Positions 3-24,002 of a stretch of DNA of 24,692 nt are shown piece by piece. Positions within the stretch are counted from its first letter, which is position 1. Each line of letters opens with the position of its first letter. The notes under the pieces are model-generated. The model had not been told where the DNA came from. It saw only the letters and a program-made list of their open reading frames with translations, and made no database searches. The position numbers and the translations under genes are program-made. The stretch is from a virus: the IMG/VR virus record IMGVR_UViG_3300050821_000615, positions 1 to 24,692 of that record. One strand, 5' to 3'.

Positions 3-296
3 TTCAGAATCGTTGAAGTGCTGCAAAGCCTCGGAGTATATCCGAAGAATCTCGGGAACCTCACTAAGACTGAGTTCGTGTTTAAGGCTCACGTTGCCAA
101 GGGCGGCGGTGTAAACGTCGCACCAGTTGCGAATGAGGCCGAACTCAAGACCATCGAGGCGCAGGAAGCAAAGATGCTTCCGGGTGCGCACGAGTCTGAA
201 GAGGACCTTGCGATCCGCGCGCAGCTTGCTGCTGAGTTCGCGGAGACGCCCCAAGAATTGAAGACCCCGATCCGTGGCACGCCATCAGGCTCCTAG
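3..296 (+). CDS. Partial gene upstream of terminase, unknown (possibly small terminase subunit)
   Basis: The reading frame is open from the left edge of the window, so the true start lies outside; a GTG at 18 is the first internal start-type codon but has no convincing ribosome binding site. About 97 residues are visible, ending at TAG 294-296. The visible part is acidic and rich in Ala and Glu toward its C-terminus, with no membrane segment and no catalytic motif that I recognise. It overlaps the GTG start of the large terminase by 23 bases, which implies translational coupling. Position directly before the large terminase is where small terminase subunits usually sit, so that is a reasonable guess from context only; the sequence itself does not prove it. 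Confidence 0.6.
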   Translation, partial: FRIVEVLQSLGVYPKNLGNLTKTEFVFKAHVAKGGGVNVAPVANEAELKTIEAQEAKMLPGAHESEEDLAIRAQLAAEFAETPQELKTPIRGTPSGS

Positions 297-1719
297 GTTC
301 GAGGCTCACAGCAGCCGCACATTATCGCAGGTCATGCGACAAGTCCCTGTCGAACTTCACCTGCCAGCGGCTCACCCGAAACAAGCAGAGTTAATCAACG
401 CGTTTGATGCGCGCAGGCTGCCCGATGGCCGGGTCATATTCAACCCCGGCACTGGCGGCTTCGACTACAGAACCTACCAGAGCTTACCGCTCGCATACCC
501 CGATCTGAAGTTTGTCGTCGGAGCTTGCGGCACGAAGTTCGGTAAGACCTACGGGTGCTCGATTCTGGTTGCGCGCATGGCGTGGGAAGTGAAGGACTCA
601 CTCAACTGGTGGGTTGCGCCGTCATACCGACAGTCGGAGATGGCGTACAGGTTGGTGAAGCGCCTTCTTCCCAAGGACAGCTACCTCGAATTGAAAGCTG
701 ACCTTCGACTCGAACTGATCGAACCGGATGGAGAGTTCCATTCCGCGATTGAGTTCAAGTCAGCAGAGAACGACGACAACCTTCGAGGGTTCGGTGTCCA
801 CTTCGCCATTCTGGACGAAGCGGCCCGTATCTCTCAGGCGTCATACGAGTCCGTGTGGACCACGATGACTCAGACCGATGGCCGCATGGTCATCATCTCG
901 ACGCCGAAGGGTCGCAACTGGTTTTACGACGAGTATCAGAAGGGCGAGAAGTCGGGGCTGTTACCCGGCGACGTGGATGAGAATCCAGAGTGGCTCTCGA
1001 TCCGAATGCCCACGTGGACGAATCCCTACGTCAAGCCACAACGAATCTTGACGATGAAGAAGAACATGCCAGCCGACGTGTTCGAGCAGGAAATCGCTGC
1101 TCGATTCATGTTGGAGTCGGCAGGTGTCTTCCGAGGGATCGAAGGCTGCATCAAGAAGGGTCTGGTCGATGCACGCGGCCTACCCATCAACGAGACGCCG
1201 CAAGCTGGTCAACGGTATGTGGTCGGAGTCGATCTTGCTCGCAAGAAAGACTACACAGTCATTACCGTGATCGACGTTCTGCGACGCCACGTTGTGTATT
1301 GGGCGCGCTTCAACGACATGTCATGGGCGGTGCAGAAGCGCCGCATCATCGAAGTATCCATGCTCTACAACAGAGCACGGGTGTACATGGACGGCACCGG
1401 ACTCGGTGATCCAATCGTCGAAGACGTAAGGAACGCAGGCGTACCAGTCGAGTGCTTCATCATCTCGAACCGCTCCAAGCAGGAGTTGATCGAGAAGCTG
1501 AGAGCAGACATCGAATTCGGTCGCATCTCGTTCCCGCAGCTTCCCATGCTCATCAAGGAGCTTCGCAACTTCGAATACGAAATCAATTCAAACGGAAACA
1601 TCAAGTACAGCGCGCCTCCGGGTCAGCATGACGACTGCGTAATCAGTCTCGCTCTTGCGGCTCATGGAACGAACATACGCATGGGCATTAGTCGTGCCTT
1701 GCAAGTTCGCGGCGTTTAA
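274..1719 (+). CDS. terL: Terminase large subunit (packaging ATPase and nuclease)
   Basis: This is the motor that pumps DNA into the procapsid and cuts it. Numbered from GTG 274, the ATPase domain shows a Walker A-type loop GACGTKFGKT at 83-92, a Walker B strand FAILDE at 178-183 with Asp181 and Glu182, and a coupling motif STPKG near 209-213. The C-terminal RNase H-like nuclease shows GVDLA near 318-322 (Asp320), YMDGTG near 371-376 (Asp373) and QHDDC near 451-455 (Asp453/454), the acidic residues expected to bind metal. At 481 residues the length is normal and both domains look intact. GTG 274 overlaps the preceding gene; an in-frame ATG at 334 is an alternative start that would keep all motifs. 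The protein works at the portal vertex, encoded by the gene at 3135. Confidence 0.96.
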   Translation: MARHQAPRFEAHSSRTLSQVMRQVPVELHLPAAHPKQAELINAFDARRLPDGRVIFNPGTGGFDYRTYQSLPLAYPDLKFVVGACGTKFGKTYGCSILVARMAWEVKDSLNWWVAPSYRQSEMAYRLVKRLLPKDSYLELKADLRLELIEPDGEFHSAIEFKSAENDDNLRGFGVHFAILDEAARISQASYESVWTTMTQTDGRMVIISTPKGRNWFYDEYQKGEKSGLLPGDVDENPEWLSIRMPTWTNPYVKPQRILTMKKNMPADVFEQEIAARFMLESAGVFRGIEGCIKKGLVDARGLPINETPQAGQRYVVGVDLARKKDYTVITVIDVLRRHVVYWARFNDMSWAVQKRRIIEVSMLYNRARVYMDGTGLGDPIVEDVRNAGVPVECFIISNRSKQELIEKLRADIEFGRISFPQLPMLIKELRNFEYEINSNGNIKYSAPPGQHDDCVISLALAAHGTNIRMGISRALQVRGV

Positions 1720-1769
1720 GTCCCTGACAACCCGAGCAGTACAGCAAACAACTCTTGGTGGGGAGTGCC

Positions 1770-2120
1770 ATGCGTAGTGATCGAAGTCTGAAACGGTGGT
1801 ACTCCCTCGCCAACAAGAAGTTCTTCTATGGCGAGTTACCGCAGAACGTAATTCTGCGAAAGGTCGGACCTGAAGAAGAGAACGACCAAGCAGGAACATA
1901 CGAGACGGAACTCAAGCGATACAAGTACGAGATTCGTTTCAACAGAGAAAAGAATCCGACGAGAACGATCCTACTCAGTGCGTTGTTGCACGAGATGATC
2001 CACGTCGCTACCGGGCTGCGAGACAACCACGGCCCACTGTTTCATGAGTGGCACCAAAAGTTAATGGAGCGCGGAGCATTCAAAAAGGGCGCGCTTCTCA
2101 AAGGAATCAGTTTGTTCTGA
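1770..2120 (+). CDS. SprT-like zinc metalloprotease
   Basis: Start ATG 1770 is chosen because GGTGGGGAG lies just upstream; a longer reading from TTG 1755 is possible but less likely. The 116-residue product carries HEMIH at 74-78, the HExxH zinc and catalytic motif, followed by HGPLF at 87-91, which fits the third His ligand and the HG..F pattern of SprT/Spartan-type minigluzincins. The N-terminal part (residues 8-35) resembles the short strand-rich lead of that family. Cellular relatives cleave proteins crosslinked to DNA; phage versions are known but their targets are mostly unknown. It sits between terminase and glycosyltransferase and ends three bases before an alternative start of the next gene. 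No separate zinc ribbon is seen after the catalytic core, so this is a minimal version. Confidence 0.82.
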   Translation: MRSDRSLKRWYSLANKKFFYGELPQNVILRKVGPEEENDQAGTYETELKRYKYEIRFNREKNPTRTILLSALLHEMIHVATGLRDNHGPLFHEWHQKLMERGAFKKGALLKGISLF

Positions 2121-2135: not shown

Positions 2136-3125
2136 ATGAACTTACCAAGTTTGGTTCCATCGTCGGGCCTACAAGCCCGCCCGGTGGACGTGAGCGTAAT
2201 CATCGCTCATCGCGGCCCTGAGATGGGCCTGTGGTTCACAATCGAAAGCTGCATGATCGACTTGGAGAGGTCCGGCCTCTCCTATGAGTTCCGCATCTGC
2301 GTCAACGGCGAGGAGATGATCTCCGAGGATTTGCGGCGGATCAAGCACTTCACCGAGAAGACTGGTCACATGGGAGAGTTACTCCATGTGGCGCAACCGA
2401 TGTCGCCGCCCACTGCGCGGCAGATGGTCACGGAGAACGCGAACGGGAAGTACCTGTTCTTCTTCGACAACCACTGCCTGCCAACACCGGGTTACTTCAG
2501 ACGCGGCGTCAGCATGATGGATGCTCAGAACATTGACTTCATGCACTCGACCACGCGGTTCTTTCATGGTGAGCAGATTCACTACGAGTACAAGCTTTCG
2601 CTAAAGCGAGATTTTTGGACTCTGGCACCATACCTCGATGCGCTTAACCCTGACCTACCGTACCGCGTCGCGGTCGCGGGTCACGGTGGATTCGTGGTGC
2701 GCAACAGCGCATGGAAAGAATGCGGCGGCTACTGGCAGGGCTTCGAAGGCTACGGTGGTGAGGAGACGTACACCGACCTGAAGTTCTGGATGCTCGGCAA
2801 GGAAGTTTGGATCGACCCGCAGATGGTCCACTTTCATTGGGCAGGTGAGCGGCAGTACTCGCGGCACTTCACCGACGACTACTACAAGAACATGTTCATG
2901 TCCGCCAACCTAATCGGCGGCGACGAGTGGTTGCACAGAGTTTTCAGCAGCGCCACGCGCTGCACGCGGTTCGTCAAGAAGGGCCAGACCGCAACACCGA
3001 TGTACGACTTGATGGTGGAGGCCCAAAGCAAAACCAAAGAGCACGCGAAGTGGATCGCAGAGCGCCGCACGCGGACTCTGGACGAACTGCTTGCGTGGTT
3101 CAAGGACAACGGAATCCGCACGTAA
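2136..3125 (+). CDS. GT-A glycosyltransferase, family 2/27-like
   Basis: The product (329 residues from ATG 2136, behind GGGGGAG) is a nucleotide-sugar-dependent glycosyltransferase of the GT-A fold. Residues 17-24 (VDVSVIIA) form the typical first strand, FFFDNHC at 108-114 supplies a DXH metal/sugar-nucleotide motif (Asp111, His113), and GYGGEETYTDLKFWMLG at 205-221 followed by VHFHW at 231-235 matches the acceptor-side acidic pair and late His seen in family 2 and, more specifically, polypeptide GalNAc-transferase-like enzymes. DXH rather than DXD points toward the latter. There is no membrane segment, so it is probably soluble and acts in the cytoplasm. Between terminase and portal it could modify a virion protein or a host surface precursor; the acceptor cannot be read from sequence. 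Confidence 0.88.
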   Translation: MNLPSLVPSSGLQARPVDVSVIIAHRGPEMGLWFTIESCMIDLERSGLSYEFRICVNGEEMISEDLRRIKHFTEKTGHMGELLHVAQPMSPPTARQMVTENANGKYLFFFDNHCLPTPGYFRRGVSMMDAQNIDFMHSTTRFFHGEQIHYEYKLSLKRDFWTLAPYLDALNPDLPYRVAVAGHGGFVVRNSAWKECGGYWQGFEGYGGEETYTDLKFWMLGKEVWIDPQMVHFHWAGERQYSRHFTDDYYKNMFMSANLIGGDEWLHRVFSSATRCTRFVKKGQTATPMYDLMVEAQSKTKEHAKWIAERRTRTLDELLAWFKDNGIRT

Positions 3126-3134
3126 AGGAAGCGC

Positions 3135-4904
3135 ATGGCAGACATTCCAATGGGGAGTACGGGGACACTTACTTACCCCGGCTCCAGCGTCAACACGGGC
3201 AATGAGGCGTCCTTCCCGACTAGCGTCGTGAATGTGAAGACGCCCAACGTTGGCGTGGCGGACGACGGAAAGCAAGACAAGGACAAGCGAGAGATCGAGC
3301 GGTTGAGGTCCACCAGCGCGTTGTACCAGAAGTACGCGCCGCTATGGAACTTCTTCCTCGCGGCCTACGAGGGTGGTAGGGACTTCGCATCTGCGTCAAA
3401 CATCTTCCGTCACCCACGTGAGCACCCGGACGATTTCAACGAGCGCGCAAAGCGCTTGTACTACCACAACTACTGCTACCCGCTGGTGGACTTCTTCACG
3501 ACGTTCATTTTTACGGAGACGATCCAGAGAGACGGCGAGAGCAACCGCGATTGGTACGACGGCTTCATCACCGACGTGAACAAGAAGGGCGAAGACATCA
3601 CCCAGTTCATGATGCAGGTGAGTGATGACATGCAGATTTTCGGCATGTCTTACATTCTCGTCGATGCTCCGCCTGCACCCCCAGAAGGAATGACCGAGGC
3701 GCAGCAGAAGGAGCAGGGCATCAGACCTTACTGGGTGCTGGTGCGGCCAACAGAGGTCCTCGACTGGGCAACTGATTCGTTCGACCAGTTCACGTACCTA
3801 AAGCGTGTTGAGTTTCAGACACGCATCAGTGGGGGATTCTCTAAGAGAAACATTGAGCGCTACAGCGAGTGGTCGCAGGACGAGATCAGGGTATCCGAGG
3901 TTGACATTACAAACCCGGACGAGCCTGTTCTGCTTTTCACTGGACAGATCATTAAGAACGAGATGGGAAAAGTCCCGTTCAATGTCGCGCGATACAAGCG
4001 CAGCAAAACCGATAAGTTCATGGGCATCTCGTTCCTGAATGACATCGCGTTCATCAGTCGCGAGGTTATGAACCTCACGTCGTTGTTGCAGGAATTCCTC
4101 TACCGCCAGTGCTTCAACATTCTGGCGATGGAGTCTGATCCGAACGTCCCTGAGATCGAACAGATGCAGGGCGAGATCAGCACTGCGAACATGCTGAAGT
4201 ACGCGCAGGGAACCAAAGAGCCTAAGTACATCACACCGCCTGTTCAGCCCGCCAAGTTCCTTCAGGACGAGCGTTCAGCCAATGTGATGTCGATGTACAA
4301 GATCGCTGCACAGGACACGATCAACGACCTGTTCAACGGTCAGAAATCCAGCGGCTTCTCGAAGTCGCAGTCGTTCCAGAACACCGTACCGAAGATCGCA
4401 ACCCGCGCTGAGACGTTGCAGCAGTGCGAGATGCAGTTGATGAAACTGACCTTCGAGTACATGGGTAAGGAATGGGACGGCACGATCAAGTACAAGGATC
4501 ACTATCAGATCACTAACTTGACCGATGCGCTCAGCCAACTGAGCACGCTATTCAAAGACTTGCAGATCAACTCCAAGACGTTCGCTGAGATGCAGATGAA
4601 GCGAATGATCGACGAGTTCGACGGTAGGTTGACTCCCGACCAACGTAAGAAGGTTTACGAAGAGATCGAGGCAATCGACTGGGATGAGTGGTTCGACGTT
4701 ATGAAGCTCGCGTTCTTGGGCCGCGCTGCATTGGCACCGGAAACGGCATTGATGATGGACGAACCAGACGTTAAGGCTGCCGCAGCGAAAGCTGAAGGCG
4801 CGACACCAGTCAAAGGCAAGGACACACCCACAGCGGCGTCAACGCCACAACGGGCAACGTCCGGGTCCGCCGAGATTGCAAAGGAAGCACGCAGTAAGAA
4901 GTAG
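3135..4904 (+). CDS. Portal protein
   Basis: The 589-residue product follows the terminase block and precedes scaffold and capsid, as portals do. It starts at ATG 3135 behind AGGAAG (3126-3131). The N-terminal 40 residues are low-complexity; after them comes an alpha/beta region with the look of the portal wing (YYHNYCYPLVDFFTTFIF around 110-127, YWVLVRPTEVLDW around 199-211), then a helical stem and crown region, and a tail rich in Ala, Thr, Pro and Lys over the last 40 residues. Portals form a dodecameric ring at one vertex through which the terminase threads DNA and to which the connector binds. Assignment rests on size, order and overall pattern; I see no single diagnostic motif. It is close in style to the portal family often found in siphoviruses without an obvious head protease. 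Confidence 0.87.
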   Translation: MADIPMGSTGTLTYPGSSVNTGNEASFPTSVVNVKTPNVGVADDGKQDKDKREIERLRSTSALYQKYAPLWNFFLAAYEGGRDFASASNIFRHPREHPDDFNERAKRLYYHNYCYPLVDFFTTFIFTETIQRDGESNRDWYDGFITDVNKKGEDITQFMMQVSDDMQIFGMSYILVDAPPAPPEGMTEAQQKEQGIRPYWVLVRPTEVLDWATDSFDQFTYLKRVEFQTRISGGFSKRNIERYSEWSQDEIRVSEVDITNPDEPVLLFTGQIIKNEMGKVPFNVARYKRSKTDKFMGISFLNDIAFISREVMNLTSLLQEFLYRQCFNILAMESDPNVPEIEQMQGEISTANMLKYAQGTKEPKYITPPVQPAKFLQDERSANVMSMYKIAAQDTINDLFNGQKSSGFSKSQSFQNTVPKIATRAETLQQCEMQLMKLTFEYMGKEWDGTIKYKDHYQITNLTDALSQLSTLFKDLQINSKTFAEMQMKRMIDEFDGRLTPDQRKKVYEEIEAIDWDEWFDVMKLAFLGRAALAPETALMMDEPDVKAAAAKAEGATPVKGKDTPTAASTPQRATSGSAEIAKEARSKK

Positions 4905-4999: not shown

Positions 5000-5761
5000 A
5001 TGTCGACACCAGCAGTTACACCCGATCCGAACAACCCTCCTGTGAAAGTGGAGTTCACCCCCGAGCAGCAGGAGCACATCAACGGACTCTTCAATTCTCG
5101 GTTCGCCAAGATTCAGTCGAAGCATGAGCAGGAGATGCAGGCCATGTCTCAGAAGCTCGAAGAACTGAAGGCCGCGATTCCGCAGAAGAATGACCCGCCC
5201 ACCAACGGCGGTAACAACGGCGGCGGCAACGCTGATGAAGAGAACAAGCGACAGATGAAGGCGCTGCTGGACGCAGAGAAGGCTGAGAAAGCCAGCCTGC
5301 GCAACCTGCTCGACGCTGAAAAGCAGGAGAAGGCGAAGATCGTTGAGGAGAACAAGAAAATCCTCAAGGACAACGCCATTAACGACGCGGCCTCAAGCCT
5401 TCCTAACGGTGTGGAGTTCCACGAGTTGAAGACTGTGAAGAAGCTGGTGGAAGACGACATTGTGTTCGATCAAGAAGCGAACCAGTGGGTCGTGAAAGAG
5501 AACGGCGCGACGAAGATGAACAGTTCGTTGCTGCCGATGACATTGACTGAGTATTTTGCTCAGTTCGCCGCAGCCCGTCCGTACCTCGTTAAGGGGACCG
5601 TGAAGGGCGGAAGCGGCTCTGCCGAGAGCGGACGGAATGGTTCGCATCAAGGCGGCGTCGGCGTGGTGAGAACCAAGGCCGACGTGAAGACCACGAAAGA
5701 CAAAGTGGACTTCATTGCAAAGTTTGGCTACGACCAATGGGCGAAGCTGCCCACTAAGTAG
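5000..5761 (+). CDS. Capsid assembly scaffolding protein
   Basis: The 253-residue product lies directly between portal and major capsid genes, where scaffolds are encoded. ATG 5000 is preceded by AAAGGAA. It is highly charged and helical: residues 19-60 and 80-125 read as coiled coils, separated by a Gly/Asn-rich linker (NGGNNGGGN, 69-77). A ten-residue motif occurs twice, LLDAEKAEKA at 89-98 and LLDAEKQEKA at 103-112, i.e. two turns of the same heptad pattern. A more globular part (130-200) and a Gly/Ser-rich tail follow. Scaffolds guide coat subunits into a procapsid and are then removed. I see no Ser protease triad or ClpP-like motif fused to it, so unlike many HK97-type modules it does not obviously carry a maturation protease. 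Confidence 0.83.
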   Translation: MSTPAVTPDPNNPPVKVEFTPEQQEHINGLFNSRFAKIQSKHEQEMQAMSQKLEELKAAIPQKNDPPTNGGNNGGGNADEENKRQMKALLDAEKAEKASLRNLLDAEKQEKAKIVEENKKILKDNAINDAASSLPNGVEFHELKTVKKLVEDDIVFDQEANQWVVKENGATKMNSSLLPMTLTEYFAQFAAARPYLVKGTVKGGSGSAESGRNGSHQGGVGVVRTKADVKTTKDKVDFIAKFGYDQWAKLPTK

Positions 5762-5863: not shown

Positions 5864-6847
5864 ATGCCTAGCACTATCGGCACAGAAACCGATTTCGTAA
5901 TCTACAACGCTCAGTTTTGGGGCGGCGTGGTTGAAACGCTGCAACAGAACACCGAAGCGTTCAACGCGGCTTCACAGAACGCCATCCGCCTCGTGACCCG
6001 GAGCATCTTGGGTCAGTACGAGCGTGAGTCGTTCCTGAAGTCCACCGCTTCACTGATCTCCCGTCGGGATGTCACCGTGACGACCGCCGTGTCCGACAAC
6101 AAACTGTCGGCTGGTGAAATGGTTGGCGTGAAGGTCAACCGTCGGCTTGGCCCGGTTACCCAGTCCCGCGACGCCTTCCGCAAGATCGGCGTGTCGCCGG
6201 AAGAGTTCAGCTTCATGCTCGGAGAGCAGAGCGGCCCTGCAATCGCTGTCGACTACATCAACCTCGCGGTTGGTTCGGTGCGCGCGGCGATCAGCAATCA
6301 GGCTGCGTTGCAGTACGACGCAACTCAGGACACCCTGAAGACCCTGAACCACACCGCGATGGTTCACGGCCTGTCGAAGTTCGGAGATCGCGCGGCCCGC
6401 ATCGTTTGTTGGGTCATGCACTCCAAGAACTACTTCGACCTGATGGCTCAGCAGATCGCTGACAAGCTGTACGAAGTCGCTGGCGCGACTGTGTACGCTG
6501 GCACCATCGCCACGTTCGGCAAGCCCGTCGTGGTGCTGGATAGCCCGAACCTATTCACCGTGGGTTCAGCCTCGACCACGTATGACGTGCTCGGCCTCGT
6601 CGAGAACGCCGTGGAAGTCGCTGAGTCTGAAGAGCGCGACATCATCTCGCAGCCCGTCACCGGGTTGGAGAACTTGGTGGATCGCATTCAGGGTGAGTAT
6701 GCGTTCAACCTGCGCGTGAAGGGTTGCGCTTACGACACCACGCAGGGTGCGAACCCGCTGGATGCGACGCTGTTGACTGCGGCCACGTGGTTGAAGGTGG
6801 TTGCGGACAACAAAGAGATGCCCGGAATCCGGGTCAGCACGAACTAA
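5864..6847 (+). CDS. Major capsid protein
   Basis: The 327-residue product follows the scaffold, is isolated from neighbours by hairpins on both sides, and has the order and size expected of a major coat protein. ATG 5864 is used with AAAGGAAA about ten bases upstream; the ATG at 5856 is out of frame. No membrane segment or enzyme motif is present. The N-terminus (residues 1-60, with helical RLVTRSILGQYERESFL around 42-58) would form the N-arm region, the middle carries alternating strands and helices, and the C-terminal part (about 190-320) contains strand-rich axial-domain-like sequence such as KPVVVLDSPNLF (219-230). An HK97-type fold is assumed because tailed phages use it; it cannot be shown here. 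No propeptide cleavage site is evident. Confidence 0.87.
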   Translation: MPSTIGTETDFVIYNAQFWGGVVETLQQNTEAFNAASQNAIRLVTRSILGQYERESFLKSTASLISRRDVTVTTAVSDNKLSAGEMVGVKVNRRLGPVTQSRDAFRKIGVSPEEFSFMLGEQSGPAIAVDYINLAVGSVRAAISNQAALQYDATQDTLKTLNHTAMVHGLSKFGDRAARIVCWVMHSKNYFDLMAQQIADKLYEVAGATVYAGTIATFGKPVVVLDSPNLFTVGSASTTYDVLGLVENAVEVAESEERDIISQPVTGLENLVDRIQGEYAFNLRVKGCAYDTTQGANPLDATLLTAATWLKVVADNKEMPGIRVSTN

Positions 6848-6918: not shown

Positions 6919-7500
6919 ATGAGCTTCGCAACAATCAACGCAACCATCGCGGACGAACGCGCCAACAGCTACGTCGATGTTCCCACGTTTCAGGCGTACT
7001 GGACGCAGCACTGGGATCAGGTAACCGCATCCTCCATGCTTGCGATTGCCGACCCTACGCTGCTGCTCATCAGAGCGTGCCGCACCATTGAGACGCTTCA
7101 CTTCACGGAGCCAGTCGATCCTCTCGCTGACTACCACTTGGTGTACGACTCGCGGCAACAGCAGATTCGCTCGGTCAAGACCAACTATGGTCGCCCGCAG
7201 AAATACAACTACTACCAACACCTTCAGTTCCCTCGCACGTTGGACATTTACCAAGACGGGACGCTCTACATTCCACCCGAGATTCTGGCCGCTCAGTGTG
7301 AGCAGGCCGCATATGAGTTCAGCTTCGATACGAGCATCCTTGAGACGAGCTTGCAGGGAGTCGACCGAGAGGCCATCAACGTCGGTGGGGTTCAGATCAG
7401 CCAGCACATGCGAGCAAAGGGTTCGATGATCTGCGCGGCAGCCTACAACATGTGCAAGCCGTACATCATTAACCAGAACATGAGATTGCAGAGGGCCTAA
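6919..7500 (+). CDS. Head-tail connector / adaptor protein (DnaT-like type)
   Basis: ATG 6919 is preceded by TAGGAG and yields 193 residues. The opening (ATINATIADERANSYVDVPT, 4-23, then FQAYW) has the form of the so-called DnaT-like phage family, usually encoded directly after the capsid gene and interpreted as the adaptor that binds the portal ring. The protein is mostly helical with a Tyr-rich middle (PQKYNYYQHLQFPR, 93-106) and no membrane segment. Its stop overlaps the next start in TAATG at 7498-7502, consistent with coupled translation of connector subunits. The link to DNA primosome protein DnaT is only a family name; in this position a structural connector role is much more likely. 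Confidence 0.75.
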   Translation: MSFATINATIADERANSYVDVPTFQAYWTQHWDQVTASSMLAIADPTLLLIRACRTIETLHFTEPVDPLADYHLVYDSRQQQIRSVKTNYGRPQKYNYYQHLQFPRTLDIYQDGTLYIPPEILAAQCEQAAYEFSFDTSILETSLQGVDREAINVGGVQISQHMRAKGSMICAAAYNMCKPYIINQNMRLQRA

Positions 7501-7919
7501 TGCCGACAGCAAACTCGCTCATCAACAAAGTCGCCAAAGCGATCAAGAAGGTTGGCCCGATGGCCCGCACGTCCTACAAGCGAGTCACCACCATCACTGG
7601 CGGCGACGAGTTGATTGGACGAGGCGGCACGACCAGTCACGTTGACACGCTGTTCAATCCACAACCGATCTTCCGGCAGCTAGGGCACAGGCAAGCGATG
7701 TATCTCAGTACCGCTACCTTGCAGTTAGTGGCCGACGACTACCACTTCACCTTCCCCGTGACTCAGGTGAGTGAGCTTGACTTCCAAGGCGCGAACACAA
7801 CCATCGTCCTGAAGGACGGCAACGGCGAAGAGAGCCTTCGGATCGTTTACATCATCACCGACCAGTTCGGTGGCAAGGACATCGTGGTTAATGTCTTCGC
7901 AAGGAGCATGGGTCACTAA
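7500..7919 (+). CDS. Putative head closure / neck protein
   Basis: A 139-residue product starting at ATG 7500, overlapping the previous stop by one base. After a basic N-terminus (Lys/Arg-rich, residues 10-27) the protein is strand-rich, with no enzyme motif. Second gene after the major capsid protein, before the tail terminator and tube genes, it sits in the slot of the head-closure protein that seals the connector and docks the tail. The assignment is from synteny and size, not from a recognised motif. It ends with a one-base overlap with the next gene, again TAATG. Confidence 0.62.
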   Translation: MPTANSLINKVAKAIKKVGPMARTSYKRVTTITGGDELIGRGGTTSHVDTLFNPQPIFRQLGHRQAMYLSTATLQLVADDYHFTFPVTQVSELDFQGANTTIVLKDGNGEESLRIVYIITDQFGGKDIVVNVFARSMGH

Positions 7920-23028: not shown

Positions 23029-23280
23029 ATGAGTCTGAAAGGTAAGTTGGCCGTGGGCTTCGGTCTGTTCCTAGCAACTGCTCTGGCGGTTCTCGGAATG
23101 ATAGCCCTCGGCGTGGTGATCGACACAGGCGTAATCGCCGCGATCATCTTCTGCCTGAACGCCGCGTTCCACTGGTGCGGCGGCTGGCAGTTCATCGGTC
23201 TGTACAAGACGCTGGCCTATGGCTTCGCGTCAGCCCTCGTCTTCCGAGTGCTCAGAATCATCTCGGCGGTGCTCTCGTAA
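23029..23280 (+). CDS. Multi-pass small membrane protein, holin candidate
   Basis: From ATG 23029 (GGAG at 23014-23017) the product has 83 residues; a GTG at 22990 directly after the preceding stop would add 13 polar residues. It shows a helix at about 5-28 (LAVGFGLFLATALAVLGMIALG), a second at about 34-45 running into a Trp/Cys-containing turn (FHWCGGW), and a hydrophobic third stretch near 57-80. Basic residues lie before the first helix. Two to three membrane helices in under 100 residues fit a holin or antiholin. Its stop overlaps the start of the kinase gene (TAATG). Without an adjacent lysin the role is not proved. Confidence 0.74.
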   Translation: MSLKGKLAVGFGLFLATALAVLGMIALGVVIDTGVIAAIIFCLNAAFHWCGGWQFIGLYKTLAYGFASALVFRVLRIISAVLS

Positions 23281-24002
23281 TGGAGAACACCATCGTAGTT
23301 GGTTTTGGCTACAAGGCCCGCCACGGGAAAGACGAAGCCGTGAAGTCGATCATCGCAGCCCGCGCTGGTCAGTACGATGTACGCCGCTACGCGTTCGCCG
23401 ATGTCCTTAAGAAGGAAGTCAACGACGCGGCAGTCGCGGCAGGCGGGATGCTTGAGTTATTCAAGCAGGGTGGAACGTTTGAGGTAGGCAAGGATGACTT
23501 CACTCCGTTCCCGTCGTGGGTCCAGTACGACCCGGATGCGGACATGACTGACCCGCTGTGTCCCCTCGGCAAGCAGCGCACACTGCTGCAATGGTGGGGC
23601 ACAGAGTACCGTCGCAATCAGGACCCGAACTACTGGATCAAAAAGCTGAACGATGTACTGCTGGTTGAGAAACCACGCATCGCACTCGTCAGCGACATGC
23701 GGTTCCCGAACGAAGTGTCATGGGTCAAGCAAGACCCGTCCTCTGGCTTTGTGGTCCGCGTGGATCGCCTCGGGTACAAGAGCAATACCCCTCCGCACGA
23801 GTCCGAGAAGGCTCTGGACTTCATGGCAGACGAAGACTGGCACTACATCATTCAGGTCAACGATGGAGACATCGACGAACTGAAGCGTGATGCAGTCGTG
23901 GTGTTCGATCTGATCGTCGAGTTTCTCACGCCGCCAGACTTGAGCGAGATCGAGGCGTTCGAGGAGAAGGTCGTGAAGACCGAGGAGGTTGTCAATGGGT
24001 GA
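23280..24002 (+). CDS. Deoxynucleoside monophosphate kinase
   Basis: ATG 23280 overlaps the previous stop by one base. The 240-residue product starts with VVGFGYKARHGKDEA (6-20), a P-loop with Gly, Lys17 and Asp18 of the phage dNMP kinase family (T4 gene 1 type), then AFADVLKKEV (38-47), LLQWWGTEYRR (102-112) and LVSDMRFPNE (136-145), all characteristic of that family, which binds dNMP and ATP and forms dNDP for phage DNA synthesis. HESEKAL (173-179) near the lid is also typical. The acidic C-terminal tail (about 220-240) is an extension. The gene lies outside the structural block and marks the change to nucleotide metabolism. Confidence 0.88.
   Translation: MENTIVVGFGYKARHGKDEAVKSIIAARAGQYDVRRYAFADVLKKEVNDAAVAAGGMLELFKQGGTFEVGKDDFTPFPSWVQYDPDADMTDPLCPLGKQRTLLQWWGTEYRRNQDPNYWIKKLNDVLLVEKPRIALVSDMRFPNEVSWVKQDPSSGFVVRVDRLGYKSNTPPHESEKALDFMADEDWHYIIQVNDGDIDELKRDAVVVFDLIVEFLTPPDLSEIEAFEEKVVKTEEVVNG

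Follow-up and report, generated by a model that had tools for sequence, protein, structure and literature searches.

What is the function of a glycosyltransferase encoded in the head operon of a phage, directly upstream of the portal gene? The question is raised by a 24.7-kb virus record of a soil phage, analyzed over its whole length and referred to here as the window, which carries a head and tail module of siphovirus type in the same gene order as Tunturiibacter phage Tunturi_4. The preliminary description proposed that a soluble enzyme with the GT-A fold, related more closely to polypeptide GalNAc-transferases (GalNAc-Ts) than to ordinary family 2 (GT2) enzymes, lies between terminase and portal and could decorate the virion. 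The 329-residue open reading frame contains DNH at residues 111–113 and GGEE at 207–210 exactly as claimed, and the HFH motif falls at 232–234. An in-frame GTG at 2124 is also present, with the better Shine-Dalgarno sequence, GGGGGAG, preceding the ATG at 2136. The position between terminase and portal is right, but the small SprT-like gene that shares this interval had gone unmentioned. The slot 3′ of the terminase gene is occupied in contig L012 (1345–1764) by a JAB/JAMM peptidase, an unrelated metalloprotease in the same position. The placement of the enzyme among head and capsid genes is supported by the operon as a whole, with 9 bp between its stop codon and the portal start, and the predicted solubility agrees with the lack of a transmembrane segment (KD19 maximum 1.03).

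Table 1. Coordinates of the genes and motifs discussed, in window positions.
Feature	Position	Strand	Basis or remark
Terminase large subunit (TerL)	274..1719	+	phrog_2, E 9e-42
SprT-like metallopeptidase, between TerL and enzyme	1755..2120	+	PF10263, E 6e-8
GT27-like GT-A glycosyltransferase, 329 aa	2136..3125	+	intact ORF, ATG 2136, stop 3125
DXH motif D111-N112-H113, putative metal/nucleotide binding	2466..2474	+	aligns with GalNAc-T4 D227-C-H229; near-invariant
YGGEE 206–210, counterpart of GalNAc-T WGGEN	2751..2765	+	profile alignment, family conservation
H232-F-H234	2829..2837	+	H234 aligns with GalNAc-T4 H362, third metal ligand
R239-Q-Y241	2850..2858	+	aligns with R...Y of GalNAc-T flexible catalytic loop
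Portal protein, disordered C-terminal tail	3135..4904	+	phrog_145, E 4e-56
Portal tail motif KDTPT, candidate acceptor	4818..4832	+	pattern K[SDQ][ST]x[TS]
Head scaffolding protein	5000..5761	+	synteny and homology, Tunturi_4 gp4
Major capsid protein (MCP), candidate acceptor	5864..6847	+	homology; second enzyme copy after MCP in L016, L021, L047, L048
Kinase gene	23274..24002		in window

Assignment of the enzyme to a glycosyltransferase class relies on profile and structural comparisons. Queried alone, the enzyme matches the Pfam GT2 model (Glycos_transf_2) below cut-off; its Pfam matches are to this generic model, no separate GT27 catalytic model is among them, and PHROGs assigns the enzyme to no family. 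A phmmer search of solved structures with the single sequence returned GalNAc-T10 as the best match (E 6e-4). When a profile of 17 family members was compared with PDB sequences, the best 15 matches were all GalNAc-Ts of family GT27 (best E 1.1e-10), well ahead of the GT2 lipid and wall teichoic acid enzymes; the first matches outside GT27 were the GT2 enzyme GalT1 (E 1.2e-5) and then RmlT (1e-4). A Corndog-type glycosyltransferase submitted to the same PDB sequence search gave no GalNAc-T match, a small control indicating that not every phage glycosyltransferase matches GalNAc-Ts. The AlphaFold (AF2) model of the enzyme is confident (pLDDT 88.9, pTM 0.89), and the first 44 PDB chains retrieved with it by Foldseek are all GalNAc-Ts, with E values down to 5.8e-16. 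VIA-align placed 29 GalNAc-T entries at Z 25.7–28.0 over 275–290 residues, corresponding to residues 135–437 in GalNAc-T2 numbering, and every listed GalNAc-T entry scored above the other GT-A enzymes. The GT2 enzymes WrtF, RmlT, K4CP, and SpsA share the GT-A core and the Pfam Glycos_transf_2 assignment but have lower structural scores, as do other GT-A families (Z 20.3 or less); GT2 enzymes mostly carry DXD rather than DXH. The best fold match among GT-A families is thus the GalNAc-T catalytic domain by AF2, Foldseek, and VIA-align, and the proposed proximity to GalNAc-Ts over ordinary GT2 enzymes is borne out by the profile and by both structural methods.

The active-site residues follow the same pattern. 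In the 17-member profile alignment, DNHC of the enzyme falls on DCHC of GalNAc-T4, and H234, R239, and Y241 fall on H362, R367, and Y370 (GalNAc-T4 residue numbers obtained by counting along the printed alignment). GalNAc-T2 binds its metal through Asp224, His226, and His359 (PMC4432651), and GalNAc-T1 does so through Asp209, His211, and His344 (PMC4202792); the corresponding DXH and downstream histidine ligands of GT27 are represented in the profile alignment by D111, H113, and H234. Conservation of 96% or more for eight residues (D111, H113, E209, E210, H232, H234, R239, and Y241) across 28 non-redundant family members with pairwise identities down to 30% shows that the motifs are not accidental. 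The phage enzyme resembles the GT27 catalytic domain in its whole-domain GT-A fold (Z up to 28), DXH, third histidine, GGE, and loop R/Y, but has about 14–18% sequence identity to it, is encoded by phages of bacteria, and has no signal anchor. The C-terminal ricin-type lectin domain is absent, as nothing follows the catalytic domain, which runs to the last residue, 329, and so is the strict WGGEN motif, in which GGE is kept while Trp is replaced by Tyr and Asn by Glu; in L016, the copy beside the MCP carries WGGEE. Because the lectin domain and strict WGGEN are missing, the enzyme is termed GT27-like rather than filed as GT27. Its description as a metal-dependent GT-A glycosyltransferase with GalNAc-T catalytic-domain architecture is well supported, as is its linkage to the portal.

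To avoid circularity, the query used to examine this linkage in viral contigs was the portal rather than the enzyme. Among the 43 portal loci recovered, the enzyme lies upstream of the portal on the same strand in all 31 that could be tested; in the remaining 12, the contig breaks off no more than about 520 bp from the portal. Among these short contigs, L051 shows the C-terminus of the enzyme at its edge, and in L035 the gene that ends beside the portal is a different one, so that the enzyme could lie at a greater distance or be missing. The contigs are partly redundant; at a cut-off of 93% identity, 28 sequences remain, the window and Tunturi_4 among them. Of 25 gaps measured between enzyme and portal, 24 fall in the range of −1 to 42 bp, and the remaining large gap, in L008, holds an HNH endonuclease gene (6976–7680) inserted exactly between the two. 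Identities of enzyme and portal are strongly correlated (r=0.91, Mantel 0/2000), and the enzyme is under purifying selection relative to 80% identical relatives (omega 0.09–0.14). The cargo genes between terminase and enzyme vary, encoding collagen-like and lectin-like proteins and JAB or SprT peptidases, while the enzyme–portal pair is kept. Some large cargo proteins beside head genes (L018 1625–5966, L059 4341–6740, and L066 1200–6040), which include a collagen-like protein with CBM_5_12, a weak prolyl-peptidase match, and others, have signal-peptide-like hydrophobic N-termini, which are unusual for virion proteins.

Distant phages of the same portal family (Rhizobium X66, Nican01, HTVC112P, Cyrano, and DSL-LC06) have no enzyme gene, and their terminase adjoins the portal. 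The enzyme was therefore probably gained at the terminase/portal junction in an ancestor of the window lineage. On comparative sequence grounds, it is not a stray moron but behaves as a core morphogenesis gene. Such strict coupling with the portal gene would also be expected of a non-catalytic assembly factor that uses the glycosyltransferase fold structurally near the portal, a role that is very unlikely given that nothing in the family is better conserved than its full complement of presumed metal and catalytic residues.

Catalysis on a virion protein is the reading we favor. The description of the enzyme as a cytoplasmic O-glycosyltransferase acting on a virion protein, most likely the portal, the capsid, or another head-associated protein, has a somewhat better than even chance of being correct, and sugar-coating of a virion protein is probable because the enzyme is both fixed beside the portal and built like animal enzymes that glycosylate proteins. 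The synteny strengthens the decoration of virion proteins suggested earlier; we infer the protein acceptor, the particular virion protein, the UDP-HexNAc donor, and the alpha-retaining chemistry. Late in infection, the enzyme would be made from the head operon and translated beside the portal protein, would bind Mn2+ and a UDP-sugar from the host nucleotide-sugar supply through D111, H113, and H234, and would place the sugar on Ser/Thr of a head protein, either ahead of assembly or in its course.

One GT-A fold serves lipids, glycans, and proteins as acceptors, and for this reason fold likeness does not fix the acceptor. The enzyme might instead act on a glycan of the host surface or on a lipid-linked precursor for receptor masking or superinfection exclusion, as GtrB-type phage glycosyltransferases do. 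All members of the enzyme family match Pfam GT2, a family that includes such enzymes, and its distant relatives have Polysacc_synt_2 and GT-B genes in their vicinity. This alternative is nevertheless unlikely, as the enzyme lacks a transmembrane segment, belongs to the head-operon core co-inherited with the portal rather than to variable morons, and has a fold matched less well by GT2 lipid and wall enzymes than by GalNAc-Ts. Phage-encoded glycosyltransferases are also described as modifying DNA (PMC12619734, citing Pyle 2024), and glycosylation of a modified base, as by the T4 glucosyltransferases, would be in keeping with the kinase gene of the window and with the dNMP kinase and DNA methyltransferases annotated in Tunturi_4. 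DNA hypermodification is the least probable of the functions weighed: a search with a working control detected no thymidylate-synthase/hydroxymethylase gene (PF00303) in 8 related records, several of which may be incomplete, a TET/JBP (PF12851) search run without a positive control gave no match, and the enzyme is placed in the late head operon.

If a head protein is glycosylated, the portal tail offers a candidate site. The pattern K[SDQ][ST]x[TS] occurs in 27 of the 32 portal tails of the lineage, compared with a shuffle mean of 1.3, and in none of the five portals of the enzyme-less outgroup (0/5). This Ser/Thr motif is conserved within an otherwise variable C-terminal tail. It is a lead to the acceptor site rather than a test of it, since the pattern was picked after viewing the tails and the sequences are related, and it could equally be a scaffold-binding site. 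An acceptor role of the MCP alone is less likely, since phages of the lineage differ in capsid protein type but retain the enzyme. The MCP of L012 (10028–10936) differs in type from that of the window, with scaffold, portal, enzyme, and tail genes still homologous. The second enzyme copy that directly follows the MCP gene is intact in all four records, which represent two contigs, each seen twice.

Enzyme homologues are present in many viral contigs, although Tunturi_4 is the sole annotated phage with one and a scan of GTDB species genomes found no relatives. An early idea that the enzyme is confined to portal-linked loci was dropped, as a 44% identical relative (L102) and weaker ones (L023 and L103) sit elsewhere. 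The L102 relative belongs to a phage with an unrelated TerL and portal and lies, with its neighbors, about 6 kb upstream of the TerL, portal, and capsid genes; L023 is downstream of a major head gene. The L102 neighbors comprise two GT31-like genes of the Galactosyl_T family (PF01762), a gene for a PseB-like UDP-GlcNAc 4,6-dehydratase, an HNH gene, and a short gene similar, on visual inspection, to the JAB gene of L012. In both L102 (3953–8740) and L105 (424–9033), which represent a different phage lineage, an enzyme relative, two Galactosyl_T genes, and a PseB-like gene lie within about 6 kb upstream of TerL, portal, and MCP, a set that recalls an animal GalNAc-T with core-1 galactosyltransferase. 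PF01762 takes in the animal core-1 galactosyltransferase, and PseB is part of flagellin glycan synthesis. The PF01762 and PseB-like neighbors of the L102 relative are compatible with protein glycosylation but do not prove it. The L023, L102, and L103 relatives share their cassettes with further glycosyltransferases and with methyltransferases, a setting that would be equally in keeping with glycan extension or a change in surface polysaccharide. The grouping of several glycosyltransferases in L102, and the activity of several GalNAc-T isoforms on glycopeptides (PMC11074326), would fit an enzyme that extends an existing virion-protein glycan or acts on a host protein and does not itself start virion glycosylation. 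Such a role is rather unlikely for the window enzyme, as most genomes examined have one copy of the family in the head operon and no partner enzyme is fixed beside it.

Glycosylated virions and glycosyltransferases in the head gene block are already known from mycobacteriophages. In Corndog, glycosyltransferases lie between portal and protease, and mycobacteriophage capsid and tail tube proteins are glycosylated (PMC4351075 and PMC12363180). Corndog gp36–38 and Che8 gp110 resemble the present case as glycosyltransferases in or near the virion structural gene block. The Corndog-type enzymes belong to a multi-gene cassette, in contrast with a single core gene tied to the portal, and hhalign of the enzyme with two of three Corndog-type enzymes gave probabilities of 10.8% and 0.1%, that is, no convincing homology. 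The closest known counterpart is Tunturi_4 gp2, a 49% identical orthologue between terminase and portal that is annotated ‘glycosyltransferase’; the passages on gp2 in the Tunturi_4 paper add nothing to this annotation, and no mention of virion proteins, mass spectrometry, or SDS-PAGE was found in that paper. Tunturi_4 is a siphovirus with a prolate head that grows on an Acidobacteriota host.

What is new is a GT27-like enzyme that behaves as a core morphogenesis gene and shows no convincing homology to the two Corndog-type enzymes with which it was aligned. A stronger version, in which a GT27-like O-glycosyltransferase is obligatory for head assembly in soil phages, glycosylates the portal-tail motif or the capsid, and is followed in some phages by GT31-like extension, is conceivable but doubtful. 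Phage virion glycosylation has been known from a few mycobacteriophages, which use other kinds of glycosyltransferase; here a GalNAc-T-like enzyme keeps a fixed place beside the portal throughout a wide phage lineage whose members are mostly uncultured. As the lineage has one cultured member, acceptor and purpose are directly testable. The finding bears on the origin of the mucin-type GalNAc-T catalytic domain and could yield small, lectin-free, soluble protein O-glycosyltransferases for study. If the stronger version holds, these phages would possess a counterpart of animal mucin-type O-glycosylation.
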